Of a stretch of 64,000 nucleotides of DNA, positions 39,489 through 46,686 are shown piece by piece (the stretch's first letter is position 1; every line of letters begins with the position of its first letter). The position numbers and the translations under genes are program-made. This DNA comes from Armatimonadota bacterium (GTDB lineage: Bacteria > Sysuimicrobiota > Sysuimicrobiia > Sysuimicrobiales > Kaftiobacteriaceae): assembly GCA_031459765.1 (NCBI GenBank), contig JAVKHY010000002.1:1-64000 (forward strand). The letters are read 5' to 3'. The notes beneath the pieces are model-generated. The model ran no database searches and was not told the origin of the DNA. It saw only the letters and a program-made list of their open reading frames with translations.

Positions 39489-40505
39489 CTAGTCGCGGAG
39501 TCGCCGCCCGGTCAGGGCGATAAACACATCCTCCAGCGAGGTCTCCACCATCTGCAGGTACCGCACCTGGCCGCCGCTCCGGGTGATGGTGTCCACCGCC
39601 CGCGGCAGCGCGCTGGCGGAGTCGCTCAGGCGCAGGATGAGCTCCCGCGCGCCGTCCGCGTTCGCCCCGCCCAGCGACACCGCCGTCACGCCGGGCAGAC
39701 TTCGCAACGTCGGCTCCAGGTCGTCGCGCCAACCCTGCACTTCACACCGCAGCACCGGCCCCTGCCCCAGGGACCGCTTCAGGGACTGGGGTGTGTCCAG
39801 GGCGATGATCCGGCCGTGGTCGATGATCCCGATACGCTCGCTGAGCTGGTCGGCCTCTTCCATGTAGTGCGTCGTGAGGATGATCGTCTTGCCCGAGGCG
39901 TGGAGTTGCCGAATCAGGTCGCGGATGTTGCGCGCGGCCTGCGGGTCCAGCCCCGTCGTCGGTTCGTCCAGCAGGAGCACCGGGGGGTCGTGCACCATGG
40001 CCTTGATCAGCGCCAGCCGCTGGCGCATGCCGGTGCTGTAGCGCTCGACGAGGTCGTCGGCCCGGGCGGCGAGACCGACCCGGTCCAGCAGATCGGCGAT
40101 CCTCCTCCGGGCCACAGCCCGCGGGACCTGATAGAGGGCGGCGAAATACTCGAGGTTCTCGCGCCCGGTGAGTTTCCAGTACACGGACCGCTCGCCGGTG
40201 AGGACCACGCCGAGGTGCCGGCGGACCTCCTCGGGGTGGGCGACGACGTCGATGCCCCAGACGCGGGCCCGCCCCGCCGTCGGGAGGAGGAGCGTGCAGA
40301 GCATACGGATGGTCGTGGTCTTGCCGGCGCCGTTGGGCCCGAGCAGGCCGAACAGCTCGCCGCGACGGATCTGCAGGTCGATCCCGTCCACGGCCCGGAT
40401 CTCGGACTGCACGGGGCGGCGGCGCGCGCCGTTCTCGCGTACGCTGCGCACGGGGAAGCGCTTCGTCAGGTGCTCCAGCTCCACCGCGAACTCAGGTGGG
40501 GTCAT
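39489..40505 (-). CDS. ABC exporter ATPase (DrrA/CcmA-like)
   Basis: The 338-residue cytoplasmic ATPase has Walker A GPNGAGKTTTIRML (about residues 55-68), signature YSTGMRQRLALIKAM, Walker B LLLLDEPTTGLDPQA and the H-loop LTTHYMEEADQL. A C-terminal domain of about 90 residues follows, ending in the ETSLEDVFIALTGR motif typical of this exporter group. It forms an exporter with the permease downstream. Its ATG overlaps the SHOCT-like gene stop (ATGA), so it belongs to the DUF2089 operon. Confidence 0.93.
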   Translation of the reverse strand: MTPPEFAVELEHLTKRFPVRSVRENGARRRPVQSEIRAVDGIDLQIRRGELFGLLGPNGAGKTTTIRMLCTLLLPTAGRARVWGIDVVAHPEEVRRHLGVVLTGERSVYWKLTGRENLEYFAALYQVPRAVARRRIADLLDRVGLAARADDLVERYSTGMRQRLALIKAMVHDPPVLLLDEPTTGLDPQAARNIRDLIRQLHASGKTIILTTHYMEEADQLSERIGIIDHGRIIALDTPQSLKRSLGQGPVLRCEVQGWRDDLEPTLRSLPGVTAVSLGGANADGARELILRLSDSASALPRAVDTITRSGGQVRYLQMVETSLEDVFIALTGRRLRD

Positions 40506-40855
40506 TCCACGATAACCTCCACCACCGTCCCCCCCGCGTCCTTGATATCCACGAGGGGCCCGCGCGAGGTCCCCTGCTGGACGGCTCTGAGGACTCCCTC
40601 CAGGTCGATGCCCCGGGCCAGGAGGCGGGCCCGAACCTTCTCCGGGACCATGGCGCCGATCGACACGGCCAATCGGGCGGGCAGCGCCACCTGCAGCTTG
40701 CTGCCTCCGGCATCCCGGATGTTCACCCGGACCGTCCGGGACAGATCTCCGGCCGGCGGCCCGTCCAGCTCCTCCAGCAGCCGCACGCCGTCCTCCGGCG
40801 TGATCTTGCCGTCGCGGACCATCTCCAGAATGCGGAGCCGGTCCTCCGCCGTCAT
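40502..40855 (-). CDS. SHOCT-like domain protein
   Basis: The 117-residue protein starts MTAEDRLRILEMVRDGKIT followed by PEDGVRLLEEL, the short helical SHOCT-like module also seen at the N-terminus of the next gene upstream. The remainder (SRTVRVNIRDAGGSKLQVAL onward) looks like a small beta domain with two similar strands, ending GGTVVEVIVE. It has no membrane segment. It overlaps genes on both sides by four bases. In other bacteria such modules accompany DUF4097 proteins in envelope-stress operons; the function here is inferred. Confidence 0.75.
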   Translation of the reverse strand: MTAEDRLRILEMVRDGKITPEDGVRLLEELDGPPAGDLSRTVRVNIRDAGGSKLQVALPARLAVSIGAMVPEKVRARLLARGIDLEGVLRAVQQGTSRGPLVDIKDAGGTVVEVIVE

Positions 40856-42108
40856 CGCCCCCGCACCACCACGTCTCCGCTCGTCGCCAGCAGACGCACC
40901 GTGGCCCCGGGCCCGTTCAGCACGCCCCGCAGGCTGCGGACGCCGGCGGTCTGCTCGGTCAGGGGAAGCCCGACCGAGACGCTGCCCGAACGCGTGGAGG
41001 CGTCGATCGTCGCCCGGGAATCGGCCGGCACGGCCAGCGTGATGTCTCCGCTGATGGTCTCGACGACCACGGCCCCCTGGACCAGTTCCTCCAGGTCGAT
41101 CTCGACCTCCCCCGCGAGGGTGCGGACGTTCACCTCCGTGCTGCGGGAGTGGACCAGCCTGACATCGCCGCTTTTCGTCGTCACCGCCACCGGTCCCGCC
41201 ACGCGCCGCAGGTCCACATCGCCGTTGACGAGGTCCAGCGCGGCCCCCCGGCTCTCCTGGATCGCCACGTCGCCGTTGAGGATGCGGCCCTCCACCCGGC
41301 CGCGGATATCCGAGGCGGCCACATCGCCGCTCTTGATGTCCACCCGGACGTCGCCCTCGACCCGGCGGATCTCGAGGTCGCCGCTGACGACATCGGCCCG
41401 CAGCGCTCCCTCCAGGCCGGCCACCCGCACATCTCCCCGCGCCACGTGGAGCTCCGCGCCGGCGACTCGATCCAGCGACAGATCGCCTTTGGCCACATCA
41501 ATCCGGGCCCCGACGCCTCTCGGCACGGTGATCTCAAAATCCACCCTGGCCCGTCGCCCGGCGGGGCGCGGCACGTGCACGACCACACTGGACCCGTCGC
41601 GACGGACCTCCACCGGGAGCGCCTCGGCCTCCCGCCGGGCCTCCTCCGCGGTGAGGGCCCACACGCGCTTGACCGCCCGGAGCCGCATCGGGCCCTCGTC
41701 CGCGGCGCTGATGCGGACGTCCCCCCAGGCATGGCGCAGGTCCAGCGTTTCCCCCGGGCGCATCGCCTCCTCCGCCGTGGTCTCCGCGCGTCCCTCCGTC
41801 AACCCCCGCAGCCCGCGCAGCACCTCGACGAAGGTGGGACGGAAGACCTCGCGGGTGCGGCGAATCTCATCCATCACCTCTCTGGGGATGGACTCTGTGA
41901 GCTCTTTGAGCACGCGGCGCAGCTCCACCCGCACATCCACGCCTTCCAAATCCTCACCCGGGCGGGATGCGGCGCGGCCTTCTTCCCGCCCGCCTTCCGG
42001 CGCCTCTTTCGACTGATCGGCGAGCTCCTGCAGCAGGGCGTCGGCCTCCTCGACGGAGATCTTGCCCTCTTTCAGCATGCGCAGCACCATCTCACGCTCT
42101 TCGTCCAT
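40852..42108 (-). CDS. DUF4097-family beta-strand repeat protein with N-terminal SHOCT-like helix pair
   Basis: The 418-residue protein starts MDEEREMVLRMLKEGKISV, a SHOCT-like module. A charged linker (about 35-110) follows. Then comes a DUF4097 right-handed beta structure (about 120-418) made of repeating SGDV/NGDV/KGDL-type turns (for example DVVSGDLEIRR, DIKSGDVAAS, ILNGDVAIQ, TKSGDVRLV). It lacks a signal peptide. Related YvlB/LiaX-type proteins monitor envelope stress in Firmicutes. It overlaps the next gene by four bases. Confidence 0.83.
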   Translation of the reverse strand: MDEEREMVLRMLKEGKISVEEADALLQELADQSKEAPEGGREEGRAASRPGEDLEGVDVRVELRRVLKELTESIPREVMDEIRRTREVFRPTFVEVLRGLRGLTEGRAETTAEEAMRPGETLDLRHAWGDVRISAADEGPMRLRAVKRVWALTAEEARREAEALPVEVRRDGSSVVVHVPRPAGRRARVDFEITVPRGVGARIDVAKGDLSLDRVAGAELHVARGDVRVAGLEGALRADVVSGDLEIRRVEGDVRVDIKSGDVAASDIRGRVEGRILNGDVAIQESRGAALDLVNGDVDLRRVAGPVAVTTKSGDVRLVHSRSTEVNVRTLAGEVEIDLEELVQGAVVVETISGDITLAVPADSRATIDASTRSGSVSVGLPLTEQTAGVRSLRGVLNGPGATVRLLATSGDVVVRGR

Positions 42109-42120
42109 CGGGGACCTCCG

Positions 42121-42495
42121 TCATCGGCGCTCGCGCAGCAGGCGCAGCGCCTCTTCCGCCGAGATTTTTCCGGCGTCCAGGGCGTCGAGGATCTCGCGAC
42201 GCTTCGTCAATTCCGCCCGGCGGTCGGGCTCCACGGCGTAGCCCAGCGCGGCCAGCAGAGCATCCAGCCGGGCGCGCACGGTGGGATAGGACAGGCCGAG
42301 TTCGCGCTCGACCTCCTTGATGTTCCCCCGGGCCTTCAGGAACAGCTCCAGGAAGGCCAGCTGCTCGGGGGTCAGCCGGGTGAACTTGGACAGCTCGAAG
42401 TGCCCTTCCACCGCCGTTCCGCACGAGGCGCACTGCAGCCGGATGACCTCGAGGTCGGATCCGCAGACGGGGCACTTCCCGGGAGCCTGTGGCAT
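42121..42495 (-). CDS. DUF2089-family regulator (zinc ribbon plus helix-turn-helix)
   Basis: The 124-residue protein begins MPQAPGKCPVCGSDLEVIRL with a zinc ribbon (CPVC and CASC). A helix-turn-helix follows (LFLKARGNIKEVERELGLSY, then PTVRARLD). The C-terminal EILDALDAGKISAEEALRLL helix pair echoes the SHOCT-like modules of the two downstream genes. It is likely the regulator of this operon. The ATG overlaps the upstream stop by one base. Confidence 0.85.
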   Translation of the reverse strand: MPQAPGKCPVCGSDLEVIRLQCASCGTAVEGHFELSKFTRLTPEQLAFLELFLKARGNIKEVERELGLSYPTVRARLDALLAALGYAVEPDRRAELTKRREILDALDAGKISAEEALRLLRERR

Positions 42496-42686
42496 CAGCG
42501 AGGTTCGCCCGGCGCGACCACAACGACCTCCGGGCCGCCCCTGACCCAGGTCAGCACCCGCTTCCACAGGGGGCGCTGCTCCTCGCGAGGCTCTACCGAC
42601 CGGACGAGCCGCTCCCGCTCGGCCGCCTGATACATCTCCGCGAGCCGCTGCCGTCCCAGCATTTCGCTGACGAACCGGTTCTGCAT
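42495..42686 (-). CDS. 63-residue protein, first gene of the DUF2089-exporter operon
   Basis: The product begins MQNRFVSEMLGRQRLAEMYQ, is mostly helical and basic, and ends EVVVVAPGEPR. A GGGAGAG ribosome-binding site precedes the ATG and a promoter lies at 42734-42762. It overlaps the DUF2089 gene by one base. I do not recognise a family. Confidence 0.7.
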   Translation of the reverse strand: MQNRFVSEMLGRQRLAEMYQAAERERLVRSVEPREEQRPLWKRVLTWVRGGPEVVVVAPGEPR

Positions 42687-42733
42687 CAGACTCTCCCAAG
42701 TCGCTTTTTAATGAGAATAAGCAACCTGAGAGA

Positions 42734-42762
42734 ATGCTAGCACAAGGTTTCTATTCTGTCAA
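42734..42762 (-). promoter_or_regulatory. Promoter of the DUF2089-DUF4097-exporter operon
   Basis: The minus strand has TTGACA (42757-42762), a 17-base spacer and TAGCAT (42734-42739), in an AT-rich gap between this operon and the ogt fusion gene. The leader is about 40 bases. Confidence 0.7.
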
Positions 42763-42818: not shown

Positions 42819-43532
42819 TCAGGCGATACGGAGGTGATTCACATCGACCCCCTCACGGGCCAACAGCTGCTGCTTGAAGGCGGGCCCACCGCGCAGGGAG
42901 TATCCTCCCAGCCCGCCGTCGCTGCGCACCACGCGGTGACAGGGGATGATCAGGGGCACCGGATTCCTGGCGCAGGCGGTGCCCACCGCCCGGGTGGCGC
43001 CGGGCTGGCCGATCGCGCGGGCGATGTCGCGGTAGGTCCGGATCTGCCCTCTGGGGATCCGGCGCAGCTGCTCGAGCACGCGGCGCTGGAAGGGACCAAC
43101 CAGCGAGAGGTCCACGGGACCGCGGAAGGGCTTGAAGTCCGTGAAGAACTCGCGCAGCAGCGTGACCAGCTTTCGGGGCGGATGGGGATCGCGGGTTACC
43201 TCCGCGCCGAAGCGCCGGCGAAAGGTCCGGCGAAACGCCTCATCGCCGGGCGCCAGGTCGACACAGGAGACGCCACGGGCGGAGTAGGCCACGTACACCT
43301 CGCCGAACGAGGTCGACAGGGAGGTGAATCGCCACGGCCCCCGCGCCCCTCCGGTCTCCCCACCCCTGCCCGCGTGCTTGAGGATGAATTCGGCCAGCTC
43401 CCCCTCCGTGAGCCGGGTGATCGCCGCGGCCGGCTTGCCGTGCAGGGTGACGATGACCGGCTCCCCCGCGACGACATCGCGCAGCAGTTCGTTGGTGCGG
43501 TTCTTCAGTTCCACGGTGTTGACCACGCGCAT
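42819..43532 (-). CDS. ogt: Phd/YefM-type antitoxin domain fused to O6-alkylguanine-DNA alkyltransferase
   Basis: The C-terminal part (about 66-230) is a methylated-DNA-protein-cysteine methyltransferase, which removes alkyl groups from O6-guanine onto its own Cys. It shows GPFQRRVLEQLRRIPRGQIR, then TYRDIARAIGQPGATRAVG, and the active-site IIPCHRVV with Cys198. The first 55 residues instead match the Phd/YefM antitoxin fold: VNTVELKNRTNELLRDVVAG, then EPVIVTLHGKPAAAITRL. No toxin gene follows. Phd domains bind operator DNA, and an 8-bp inverted repeat overlaps the promoter just upstream, so self-regulation is plausible. The ATG at 43532 follows a GAGGGGCGGG ribosome-binding site. Confidence 0.88.
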   Translation of the reverse strand: MRVVNTVELKNRTNELLRDVVAGEPVIVTLHGKPAAAITRLTEGELAEFILKHAGRGGETGGARGPWRFTSLSTSFGEVYVAYSARGVSCVDLAPGDEAFRRTFRRRFGAEVTRDPHPPRKLVTLLREFFTDFKPFRGPVDLSLVGPFQRRVLEQLRRIPRGQIRTYRDIARAIGQPGATRAVGTACARNPVPLIIPCHRVVRSDGGLGGYSLRGGPAFKQQLLAREGVDVNHLRIA

Positions 43533-43546
43533 GACCCGCCCCTCGA

Positions 43547-43572
43547 AGAATAGCCATTTTAATAGCTATTCT
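43547..43572. promoter_or_regulatory. Inverted repeat, candidate operator for the Phd-Ogt protein
   Basis: AGAATAGC (43547-43554) and GCTATTCT (43565-43572) form 8-bp arms ten bases apart. The right half is part of AATAGCTATT, itself a perfect 10-bp palindrome. It overlaps the -10 box of the promoter at 43568-43595 and lies 15 bases before the ATG. Confidence 0.7.
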
Positions 43573-43595
43573 ATCACGAGGGCTCCGGCCGTCAA
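43568..43595 (-). promoter_or_regulatory. Promoter of the Phd-Ogt gene
   Basis: The minus strand has TTGACG (43590-43595), a 16-base spacer and TAGAAT (43568-43573). The -10 is inside the inverted repeat, which fits repression by occlusion. Confidence 0.6.
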
Positions 43596-43667: not shown

Positions 43668-45557
43668 TCACCGGGACTCCTGCACCGCTTCGTCCCGGTA
43701 CCGGACGTCCGGGTGCGCCTGCAGGTAGTCGAAGACCTTCTGCGCGGTCTTCGCGCCCACCACCTCGGCGATCTGCTCCACGGTGGCCTGGCGGATGGCG
43801 CGCACCGAGCCGAAGCGGCGGATCAGGTCGCGCTTGCGCTTCTCCCCGATCCCCCGGATTTCATCCAGGACCGAGAAGACCACCCGCCGTTCTCGGAGCC
43901 GGCGGTGGTAGGCGTTGGCGAAGCGGTGCGCCTCGTCGCGGAGGCGCTGCAGCAGCTGCAGCGAGTGGGAATCCCGCGGCAGCTGCAGGGGATCGGGGTG
44001 GGCCGCGGTCACGACGAGCTCTTCCTGCTTGGCCAGCGCCACGGCCGGGATGGCGTGGTTGTACTCGAAGAGCACCTCGCGCGCCGCGTTCAGTTGCCCC
44101 CGCCCGCCGTCGATGAGGATGAGGTCGGGCAGCACCGACCACTTCACCCGGACCGGCTCGTCGCGGTCCAGGCGCTCCTGCTCCTCGCGGCCGGCGGCGA
44201 ACCGCCGCCGCAGCATCTCCTGGAGCATGGCGTAGTCGTTGGGCCCCTCGGTCCACTTCATCCGGAAGCGCCGGTAATCGCGCTTAAGGGGCCGTCCGCC
44301 CTCGAAGACCACCATCGACCCCACGGACTCGCCGGACTGGAAGTTGCTGATGTCGTAGGCCTCGATCCGGAAGGGCGGGGTCTCCAGACCGAGGACCTCC
44401 TGGAGCTCCTTGACCGCCGCGCCCTCCAGCCCGGTCCGCCGGGCCCGTTCGTGCTGCAGGAACAGCGCGGCGTTCTCCGCCGCCATCTCCACGAGCCGTC
44501 GGCGATCCCCGCGCTGGGGGACCACCACCTGGACCCGACCGCCCCGCCGGTCGCCGAGCCAGGTGGCGATGAGCTCGGCGTCCTCCACCGCTTCCTGGAG
44601 CACGACCTCCGGCGGCAGCGAGGGGGCATCCTGGTAGTACTGTTTGATGAACTCGGAGAGGATCTCGCCGGTGGTGGCGCCGCCCGCGCCTTCCAGAATG
44701 AAGTGTTCCTGCCCCTGCAGGCGGCCGCCCCGGATGAAGAAGGCCTGGACGCAGGCCAGCTGGCCCGCCTGGGCCAGGGCAAAGACATCCCGGTCTTCCA
44801 GACCCGCGGTGGCGATGCGCTGCCGCTCGTAGACCGCCTCCATGGCCTGGATCTGATCGCGCAGCTGGGCGGCGCGCTCGAAGGCCATGGCCTCCGCCGC
44901 ACGGGTCATCTCCTGACGCAGTTCGTCCAAGAGCGCGGAGGCCTTCCCCTCCAGGAACAGCGCCGCCTGTCGCACCTGCTCGGCGTAGGCCTCCGGCCCG
45001 GGGCCCCAGGCCACGCACGGGGCGGTGCACTGCCCGATGTAGTAGTCCAGGCAGGGCCGCGGCAGGTCCCGCGTGATGTCGATGTCGCAGGAACGCAGCT
45101 TGAACAGCTTTCGGATGGTGCGGATCGTCCGGCGGACGAGTTTGGGTTCGTGATAGGGGTACGGGCCGAAGTAGCGCGCGCCGTCGCGGAGCACCCGCCG
45201 GGTCATGAGGATCTTGGGAAAGGCCTCGTTGGTGATCTTCACGTAGGGAAAGGCCTTGTCGTCGGCCATCCGCACGTTGTACAGGGGGCGGTGCCGCTTG
45301 ATCAGGTTGGTCTCCAGGATCAGCGCTTCGACCTCGTTCTCGCAGGCGATCACCTCGAAGTCGGCGATCCGGCTCATCAGATGGCGGATCCGGGGGCTCT
45401 CCAGATGGCCGCTGTCCTGGAAGTACTGGCGGACCCGCTGGCGCAGGACGGCGGCCTTGCCCACGTAGATCACCCGGCCGGCTCCGTCCTTCATCAGGTA
45501 GACGCCGGGCCGGGCGGGGACGAGCTTCAGTTTGTCCTCGAGGTTGGCCACGGCCAT
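43668..45557 (-). CDS. uvrC: Excinuclease ABC subunit C
   Basis: UvrC makes both incisions in nucleotide excision repair. The 629-residue protein has the N-terminal GIY-YIG nuclease (PGVYLMKDGAGRVIYVGKA), a Cys-containing CLDYYIGQCTAPC segment, the UVR domain (about 200-235), the RNase H-like C-terminal nuclease (IDGGRGQLNAAREVL and DSHSLQLLQRLRDEAHRFA) and terminal helix-hairpin-helix motifs (EIRGIGEKRKRDLIRRFGS). The ATG at 45557 (MAVANLEDKLKLVP) matches the family. It follows an aminotransferase gene by 13 bases. Confidence 0.96.
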   Translation of the reverse strand: MAVANLEDKLKLVPARPGVYLMKDGAGRVIYVGKAAVLRQRVRQYFQDSGHLESPRIRHLMSRIADFEVIACENEVEALILETNLIKRHRPLYNVRMADDKAFPYVKITNEAFPKILMTRRVLRDGARYFGPYPYHEPKLVRRTIRTIRKLFKLRSCDIDITRDLPRPCLDYYIGQCTAPCVAWGPGPEAYAEQVRQAALFLEGKASALLDELRQEMTRAAEAMAFERAAQLRDQIQAMEAVYERQRIATAGLEDRDVFALAQAGQLACVQAFFIRGGRLQGQEHFILEGAGGATTGEILSEFIKQYYQDAPSLPPEVVLQEAVEDAELIATWLGDRRGGRVQVVVPQRGDRRRLVEMAAENAALFLQHERARRTGLEGAAVKELQEVLGLETPPFRIEAYDISNFQSGESVGSMVVFEGGRPLKRDYRRFRMKWTEGPNDYAMLQEMLRRRFAAGREEQERLDRDEPVRVKWSVLPDLILIDGGRGQLNAAREVLFEYNHAIPAVALAKQEELVVTAAHPDPLQLPRDSHSLQLLQRLRDEAHRFANAYHRRLRERRVVFSVLDEIRGIGEKRKRDLIRRFGSVRAIRQATVEQIAEVVGAKTAQKVFDYLQAHPDVRYRDEAVQESR

Positions 45558-45570
45558 GAGGCGCCGTCCT

Positions 45571-46686
45571 TCAGAGCCCCCGGAGCAGGGCCGCGGTGCG
45601 GGCCAGGCCTTCCTCCAGGGTCCGTCGTTCCATGCCAAAGCCGATCCGCAGGTAGCCGTCCATCTGGAAGTGGTCGCCGGGGACGACGAGGACATCCTGC
45701 TCCCGCCGCAGCCGCTCCGCCAGTACGGTGGAGTTGATCGCGGCGCGGTACTGGACGAAGGCGATGGCGCCGGCCTGCGGCGGGTGCCAGGAGAGCTCCT
45801 CGGCCAGGCCCTCCATCCAGGACGACAGCACCCCGAAGTTCTCCGTGAGGATCCGGCGCGTGCGCGCCTGCAAACGCTGTCGGGTGCGGGGCAGCAGGGC
45901 CATGAGGGCCAGCCGATCGCTCAGCACGGCGGGGGCGATGGTGGTGAAGTCGTGGTAGGCCCAGCAGGTGTGCACCACGTCGGGCGGAGCGACGATCCAC
46001 CCGATGCGCAGTCCGGGCAGTCCGTAGGCCTTGGACAGCCCACCGGTAACCACGGTGCGCGGGTACCGCCCCCAGAAAGACGGCGTGGCAGGACCGTCGC
46101 GCTCTGCGCCGCGGTACACTTCGTCGGCCACGACCCAGGCCCCGACCCGGTCCGCCACCGCGCAGACGGCGTTCAGCGTCTCGACGGAGAACACCGCCCC
46201 GGTGGGGTTGTTGGGATGGCAGAGGAAGATCGCCTTGGTCCGCGGCGTCACCGCGCCGGCCAGCTCGTCCACGTCGGCGACCCACCCTCCATCCGTTCGG
46301 TGCAGCCACCACTCCCGCACGAGGCCGCTCCAGGCTTGGGCCAGCAGGGGCAACTGCATGTAGTTGGGCAACATGACCACGGCCTCGTCGCCGGGATCCA
46401 GCAGGGACCAGGCCACCAGGAAGTTGGCCTCCGCCGTGCCCGCCGTCACCAGGACATTCTCCGGGCCCGCTCCGTGGTAGAGGCCGGCGATCTCGCCGCG
46501 CAGTTCCGGGCTGCCGTTGGTGTGGCCGTAGCCGAGCGGCTGGTGGGCCAGGACCTCCTGCACCCAGGTGTGATCGACCAGGGCGGCCAGGGAGAGGGGC
46601 TGGATCCCGCTCTCGGAGAGGTTGTAGGCGACGGTGGTCTCCCACGTGGACTGGAACCGCTCCATCTCGAAGCGCGCGATCTTCAT
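45571..46686 (-). CDS. PLP-dependent class I/II aminotransferase
   Basis: The 371-residue fold-type I enzyme shows CHPNNPTGAVFS, ADEVYRGAE (PLP ring Asp) and the PLP-lysine block GGLSKAYGLPGLRIGW, with a terminal RIGFGMERRTLEEGL. The substrate cannot be assigned. The ATG at 46686 (MKIARFEMERFQSTW) is chosen over a longer frame because of family length and the GGCAGC-type spacing; it lies 22 bases after uvrA. The position between uvrA and uvrC is unusual. Confidence 0.9.
   Translation of the reverse strand: MKIARFEMERFQSTWETTVAYNLSESGIQPLSLAALVDHTWVQEVLAHQPLGYGHTNGSPELRGEIAGLYHGAGPENVLVTAGTAEANFLVAWSLLDPGDEAVVMLPNYMQLPLLAQAWSGLVREWWLHRTDGGWVADVDELAGAVTPRTKAIFLCHPNNPTGAVFSVETLNAVCAVADRVGAWVVADEVYRGAERDGPATPSFWGRYPRTVVTGGLSKAYGLPGLRIGWIVAPPDVVHTCWAYHDFTTIAPAVLSDRLALMALLPRTRQRLQARTRRILTENFGVLSSWMEGLAEELSWHPPQAGAIAFVQYRAAINSTVLAERLRREQDVLVVPGDHFQMDGYLRIGFGMERRTLEEGLARTAALLRGL

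Follow-up and report, generated by a model that had tools for sequence, protein, structure and literature searches.

An antitoxin-type DNA-binding domain fused to an O6-alkylguanine-DNA alkyltransferase, with a predicted operator on its own promoter

The fusion gene and its distribution

The window, by which we mean the whole stretch of 64,000 nucleotides analysed, contains a gene that joins a DNA-binding domain of the Phd/YefM antitoxin type to a DNA-repair enzyme. It lies downstream of uvrC and is preceded by a promoter-like site and a predicted operator. The features of the locus are as follows.

43668..45695, minus strand: uvrC, the upstream neighbour, named from its sequence
43590..43595, minus strand: -35 box TTGACG, from a promoter scan
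43568..43573, minus strand: -10 box TAGAAT with extended TG, from a promoter scan
43562..43569, no strand assigned: predicted operator palindrome 1 (ATAGCTAT), overlapping the 3′ end of the -10 box
43550..43557, no strand assigned: predicted operator palindrome 2 (ATGGCTAT on the minus strand), in the early transcribed region
43539..43544, minus strand: Shine-Dalgarno-like GAGGGG, from the sequence
42819..43532, minus strand: Phd-alkyltransferase fusion CDS, a single ORF with an ATG start, 237 aa, two Pfam domains above cut-off
43374..43532, minus strand: Phd/YefM-type DNA-binding domain, aa 1-53, without the toxin-binding tail (PF02604, TIGR01552)
43338..43373, minus strand: linker, aa 54-65, differing in length and sequence across 16 aligned fusions
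42843..43337, minus strand: O6-alkylguanine-DNA alkyltransferase, N-subdomain plus catalytic/DNA-binding domain, aa 66-230 (PF01035, TIGR00589, Ada C-terminal profile)
42933..42944, minus strand: active-site PCHR (Cys198), from sequence and alignment

A reading of the sequence alone had described a Phd/YefM domain (residues 1-55) joined to a complete alkyltransferase with Cys198 in PCHR, and the Pfam and NCBIfam matches within this one ORF bear the description out. PhdYeFM_antitox (PF02604) matches aa 1-39 with 31.2 bits against a cut-off of 29.8, phd_fam of NCBIfam (TIGR01552) also matches above its cut-off, and DNA_binding_1 (PF01035) matches aa 147-229 with 115.7 bits. Because the NCBIfam profile of the Ada C-terminus aligns with aa 60-228, the alkyltransferase is complete, including its N-subdomain; the closest solved structure to this part is E. 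coli Ada-C (1sfe, E 4e-23). The active site reads P197-C198-H199-R200, Cys198 is unchanged in all 16 aligned full-length fusions, and Y167, R181, N190 and E227 are invariant together with the active-site tetrad in alignment A1. The protein has both the domain and the active site of an alkyltransferase, and alkyl-transfer activity is predicted. As an antitoxin it has the DNA-binding domain and lacks the C-terminal toxin-binding tail and an adjacent toxin gene. An AlphaFold2 model of the fusion built on a 5-row alignment has a mean pLDDT of 61, with values of ~34-50 over the Phd part, too low to support a fold comparison.

The genes on either side are uvrC (upstream) and a DUF2089 gene (downstream), in agreement with the earlier statement that no toxin gene adjoins the fusion. 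By tblastn of the loci, uvrC also directly precedes the fusion in further members of the two families that carry it. No PF01035 protein other than the fusion was found in the window's genome (G000, 99% complete). A further good promoter (TTGACA-17-TAGCAT with TG, 42734-42762, minus strand) precedes the DUF2089 gene, so that this gene could be transcribed separately from the fusion. It is of the zinc-ribbon/HTH type and stands first in a group (40502-42699, minus strand) that continues with a SHOCT/LiaG-like DUF4097 gene and with a short ORF whose N-terminus is similar; the group is possibly an envelope-stress operon.

The fusion was searched for in 61 genomes and in 43 genomes of the phylum. 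The domain order to which the sequence-only reading had drawn attention recurs in 17 of the 43 phylum genomes, in two families: f1, the family of the window (8 of 10 genomes, one with a frameshifted copy), and f5 (9 genomes). This recurrence rules out a frameshift or assembly error joining two genes, an artefact that the same reading had named as fatal to its case, and we rejected it. In the alkyltransferase tree the fusions all group together, behind a branch supported at 100/99. Beyond the phylum, a pattern-limited scan of contigs gave fusions only in this group, together with two solo Phd loci; a Phd-alkyltransferase was absent among the plasmid matches listed, and none was found in viral contigs. 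These limited searches, which for two other phyla covered only tiny samples, gave no fusion from beyond the phylum.

We also considered membership of the Ada class and rejected it, since the Pfam scan shows only the Phd and alkyltransferase domains and since PF02805, the methylphosphotriester/zinc domain of Ada, is absent from both the protein and the genome. PF02805 occurs in 14 of the 43 phylum genomes (all 14 of f2, f6 and f7; none of f1, f3, f4 and f5) and is absent from 17/17 fusion carriers. The fusion and Ada are mutually exclusive at the family level, so that few independent events lie behind this pattern.

The promoter, the predicted operator and constraint on the Phd domain

Directly in front of the fusion lies the promoter-like site TTGACG-16-TAGAAT (43595..43568, minus strand); the region contains three promoter-like sites, where 0.1 would be expected by chance. 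An 8-bp inverted repeat had been claimed at the -10 box, and its arms (43547-43554 and 43565-43572) are indeed exact, but a more informative reading of the element is a pair of 8-bp palindromes of the form ATRGCYAT at 43550-43557 and 43562-43569, 12 bp apart from centre to centre. The operators of E. coli YefM and of Axe each consist of two palindromes with the same 12-bp centre-to-centre distance, and the L palindrome of yefM-yoeB covers the -10 box (PMC7730913, PMC4803016). The predicted operator shares this paired arrangement over the -10 box and lacks the TGTACA core.

Across 46 genomes there are nine exact copies of ATRGCYAT-N4-ATRGCYAT, where chance would give ~0.001 per genome and 0.04 in all, and a reversed-pattern control gave zero copies in the same genomes. 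Eight of the nine copies are distributed one per f1 fusion genome (8/8), always directly upstream of the fusion, and the ninth, in G014, precedes a phd gene that stands alone. A diverged operator, matching at 12-14 of 16 positions, precedes all nine f5 fusions; its scores were equalled by no more than 3 of 1000 simple base shuffles in eight genomes and by 19 of 1000 in G029. Upstream of 12 alkyltransferase/Ada genes without Phd (0.7-1.9 kb scanned), the best matches reached 9-12 of 16 positions, no higher than shuffles. A relaxed search of four genomes with up to 2 mismatches returned for the most part ATGGCCATC strings that look like coding sequence, and no further site that was convincing; from these scans the fusion does not appear to control a regulon.

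Several loci deserve separate mention. At L052 (G001:C56) the fusion is frameshifted after aa 34 with its operator intact, which is either real decay or a bin error. At L022 (G005:C7) the Phd part is cut to the first helix region and one operator box is degraded (14/16 overall), with uvrC still upstream, so that this genome provides a naturally occurring loss of the domain; because G005 lacks most of the Phd domain yet keeps a 14/16 operator match, co-decay of operator and domain is not clear. A YefM-YoeB-like pair elsewhere in the window's genome (L001, G000:C24:3066-6266) has two TGTACA motifs 13 bp apart upstream; this canonical Phd-type module differs from the fusion in its operator core.

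Arg10 and Arg31 of YefM are essential for DNA binding (PMC4803016). In our own alignment Lys10 occupies the Arg10 position in 16/16 fusions, and the Arg31 position is Arg or Leu, with Leu in 7 of 16, the window's fusion among them. The dN/dS of the Phd domain is 0.03-0.13 in six of ten pairs, those of f1 and of the f5 genera g13/g22, and in these groups the Phd domain changes at about the same slow rate as the catalytic domain and more slowly than the alkyltransferase N-subdomain (0.15-0.36). In the f5 genus g9 the value is ~0.25 in three of four pairs and 0.65 in one, at low and therefore noisy dS, and the estimated constraint on the Phd domain is weaker in this genus. The conserved operator, the YefM-like geometry, Lys10 and selection on the Phd domain together give good support to autorepression, and we consider it very probable that the Phd domain represses the fusion's own promoter. 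This part of the original proposal thus gains strong comparative backing from an operator that sits on the gene's own promoter and is conserved in carriers.

Origin from phd-parE modules

Up to ~aa 54 the Phd domain of the fusion is 59-69% identical to stand-alone antitoxins (G034:C83, G014:C256 and L043). The similarity covers the LxxFIL segment (aa 46-51) and ends where the toxin-binding tail begins. These relatives are full antitoxins of 83-86 aa, followed by ORFs that match ParE_toxin, and they too have the paired ATRGCYAT palindromes upstream. Because phd-parE modules with a related Phd domain share the operator, the DNA-binding half of an antitoxin appears to have been captured. The simplest history is that an alkyltransferase gene acquired the antitoxin's 5′ half in the common ancestor of f1 and f5, and the operator probably came along with it. 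Solo antitoxins nest among the fusions in a tree of the 55-residue Phd domain, which is too short to fix the direction of the transfer.

Two of the stand-alone modules stand out by where they occur. L043, in a Deltaproteobacteria MAG, is a solo phd-parE pair with a 69% identical domain and the same paired operator, which suggests that a module of this type moves between phyla. G034 encodes both a fusion (L023, G034:C109) and a stand-alone phd-parE pair (L045, G034:C83) with related operators, and with both present cross-regulation of the toxin-antitoxin module and the repair gene is possible.

Autorepression, alkylation damage and known systems

The account that we favour, with moderate confidence, is a self-repressing suicide alkyltransferase that is derepressed when alkylation damage uses it up. 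Two Phd-domain dimers would lie side by side on the two ATRGCYAT palindromes, over the -10 box and the early transcribed region, and would block RNA polymerase; the toxin-binding tail of a phd-parE antitoxin would have been replaced by the alkyltransferase. Alkylation damage would use up the protein, recruit it to lesions elsewhere and make it unstable once it has accepted an alkyl group; the level of free repressor would drop and the gene would be derepressed, yielding a one-gene, one-operator replenishment loop in genomes without Ada. In human AGT, alkylation lowers stability and opens up the fold (PMC10779285), and each repair event consumes a molecule, so that free repressor should fall under damage. 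On these grounds we regard relief of autorepression by DNA damage, as in the self-sensing repair switch proposed from the sequence alone, as somewhat probable. The variable linker gives no evidence of a rigid connection between Cys198 and the Phd domain, which makes loss of the repressor likelier than a tight allosteric signal; coupling is more likely to proceed by suicide consumption or destabilisation than by allostery. A single operator per genome points to a local feedback loop and not to an Ada-type regulon. More tentatively, the system might be a second bacterial adaptive response to alkylation that operates without Ada, in which the inactivating O6-alkyl transfer is itself the signal and the alkylated or consumed protein could no longer hold the antitoxin-type operator on its own promoter.

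Different mechanisms could underlie the same arrangement. The gene might be under plain negative autoregulation, which would stabilise the amount of repair protein and suppress fluctuations without any response to alkylation. All of the operator evidence fits this reading equally well, the linker shows no allosteric route, and the genome contains only one target. However, plain autoregulation requires the alkylated protein to remain an intact repressor, whereas alkylated human AGT is destabilised (PMC10779285) and a self-repressing suicide protein loses its repressor if alkylated molecules are degraded or unable to bind. We consider it unlikely. It is very improbable that the Phd domain is a dimerisation or DNA-tethering module for repair only, with the palindromes serving another regulator such as a different Phd protein. 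There are seven PF02604 matches in G000 that might provide one, but no further exact operator copy exists in that genome, hence none before its other phd genes, and the operator tracks this particular Phd subfamily (the fusions and the close solo phd genes) and is absent before alkyltransferases without Phd.

Slightly less credible again is a role as a toxin-less antitoxin, in which the fusion would neutralise a RelE/ParE-type toxin in trans and the alkyltransferase would be a passenger. The nearest stand-alone relatives of the domain are phd-parE antitoxins and G034 has both arrangements, but the similarity stops at the start of the toxin-binding tail, no toxin gene adjoins the fusion, and no ParE-family toxin (PF05016) was found anywhere in the 99% complete G000. 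The least probable reading is that the dyad acts as RNA, in a leader hairpin hiding the ribosome-binding site: it abuts the Shine-Dalgarno sequence in the f5 genus g9, but the element lies partly inside the -10 box and would be only partly transcribed, each 8-bp box is palindromic or nearly so at a fixed 12-bp spacing, neither of which a hairpin needs, and an RNA leader element was rejected for want of any Rfam match.

The fusion offers a clear example of a housekeeping DNA-repair gene that appears to have taken up the DNA-binding domain of a toxin-antitoxin system, probably along with the operator. In bacteria without Ada, a single protein acting at a single site could in this way tune the supply of alkyltransferase, and one may ask whether an adaptive response can be driven by alkyl transfer alone. 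No antitoxin-alkyltransferase fusion was found in the open-licence literature searched, and a survey of toxin-antitoxin systems does not mention alkyltransferase or methylguanine (PMC2701414). A review of alkyltransferases lists, besides Ada, fusions to an endonuclease or a histone-like domain (PMC10779285). AGT-EndoV of Ferroplasma and the histone-like AGT-2 of C. elegans resemble the present protein in that an alkyltransferase is fused to another domain (PMC10779285), but those partners are not antitoxin DNA-binding domains with an operator. Deinococcus IrrE/PprI, an Xre domain joined to a COG2856 protease domain, likewise places a toxin-antitoxin-type DNA-binding domain in DNA-damage control (PMC2701414); however, its domains and mechanism are different and it controls recA rather than itself.

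Among toxin-antitoxin systems, YefM-YoeB and Axe-Txe share with the fusion the Phd/YefM N-terminal domain and the spacing of the two palindromes at -10, whereas their operator core is TGTACA in place of ATRGCYAT, and the fusion has a repair enzyme instead of a toxin-binding tail and toxin. The phd-parE modules are alike in both domain and paired operator, and differ in that a short stand-alone antitoxin is followed by a ParE-family toxin ORF. E. coli Ada, to whose logic the sequence-only reading had likened the gene, likewise couples, within one protein, an O6-alkylguanine alkyltransferase to a DNA-binding regulator of its own promoter, and its C-terminal domain is homologous to the alkyltransferase of the fusion. 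As that reading held, the fusion is built from parts other than Ada's, with neither the PF02805 domain nor an AraC-type HTH; the likeness does not extend to scope or sign, since Ada activates a regulon and the fusion is a predicted repressor with one operator per genome. Compared with these systems, the fusion is probably a self-regulated alkyltransferase built from toxin-antitoxin parts.
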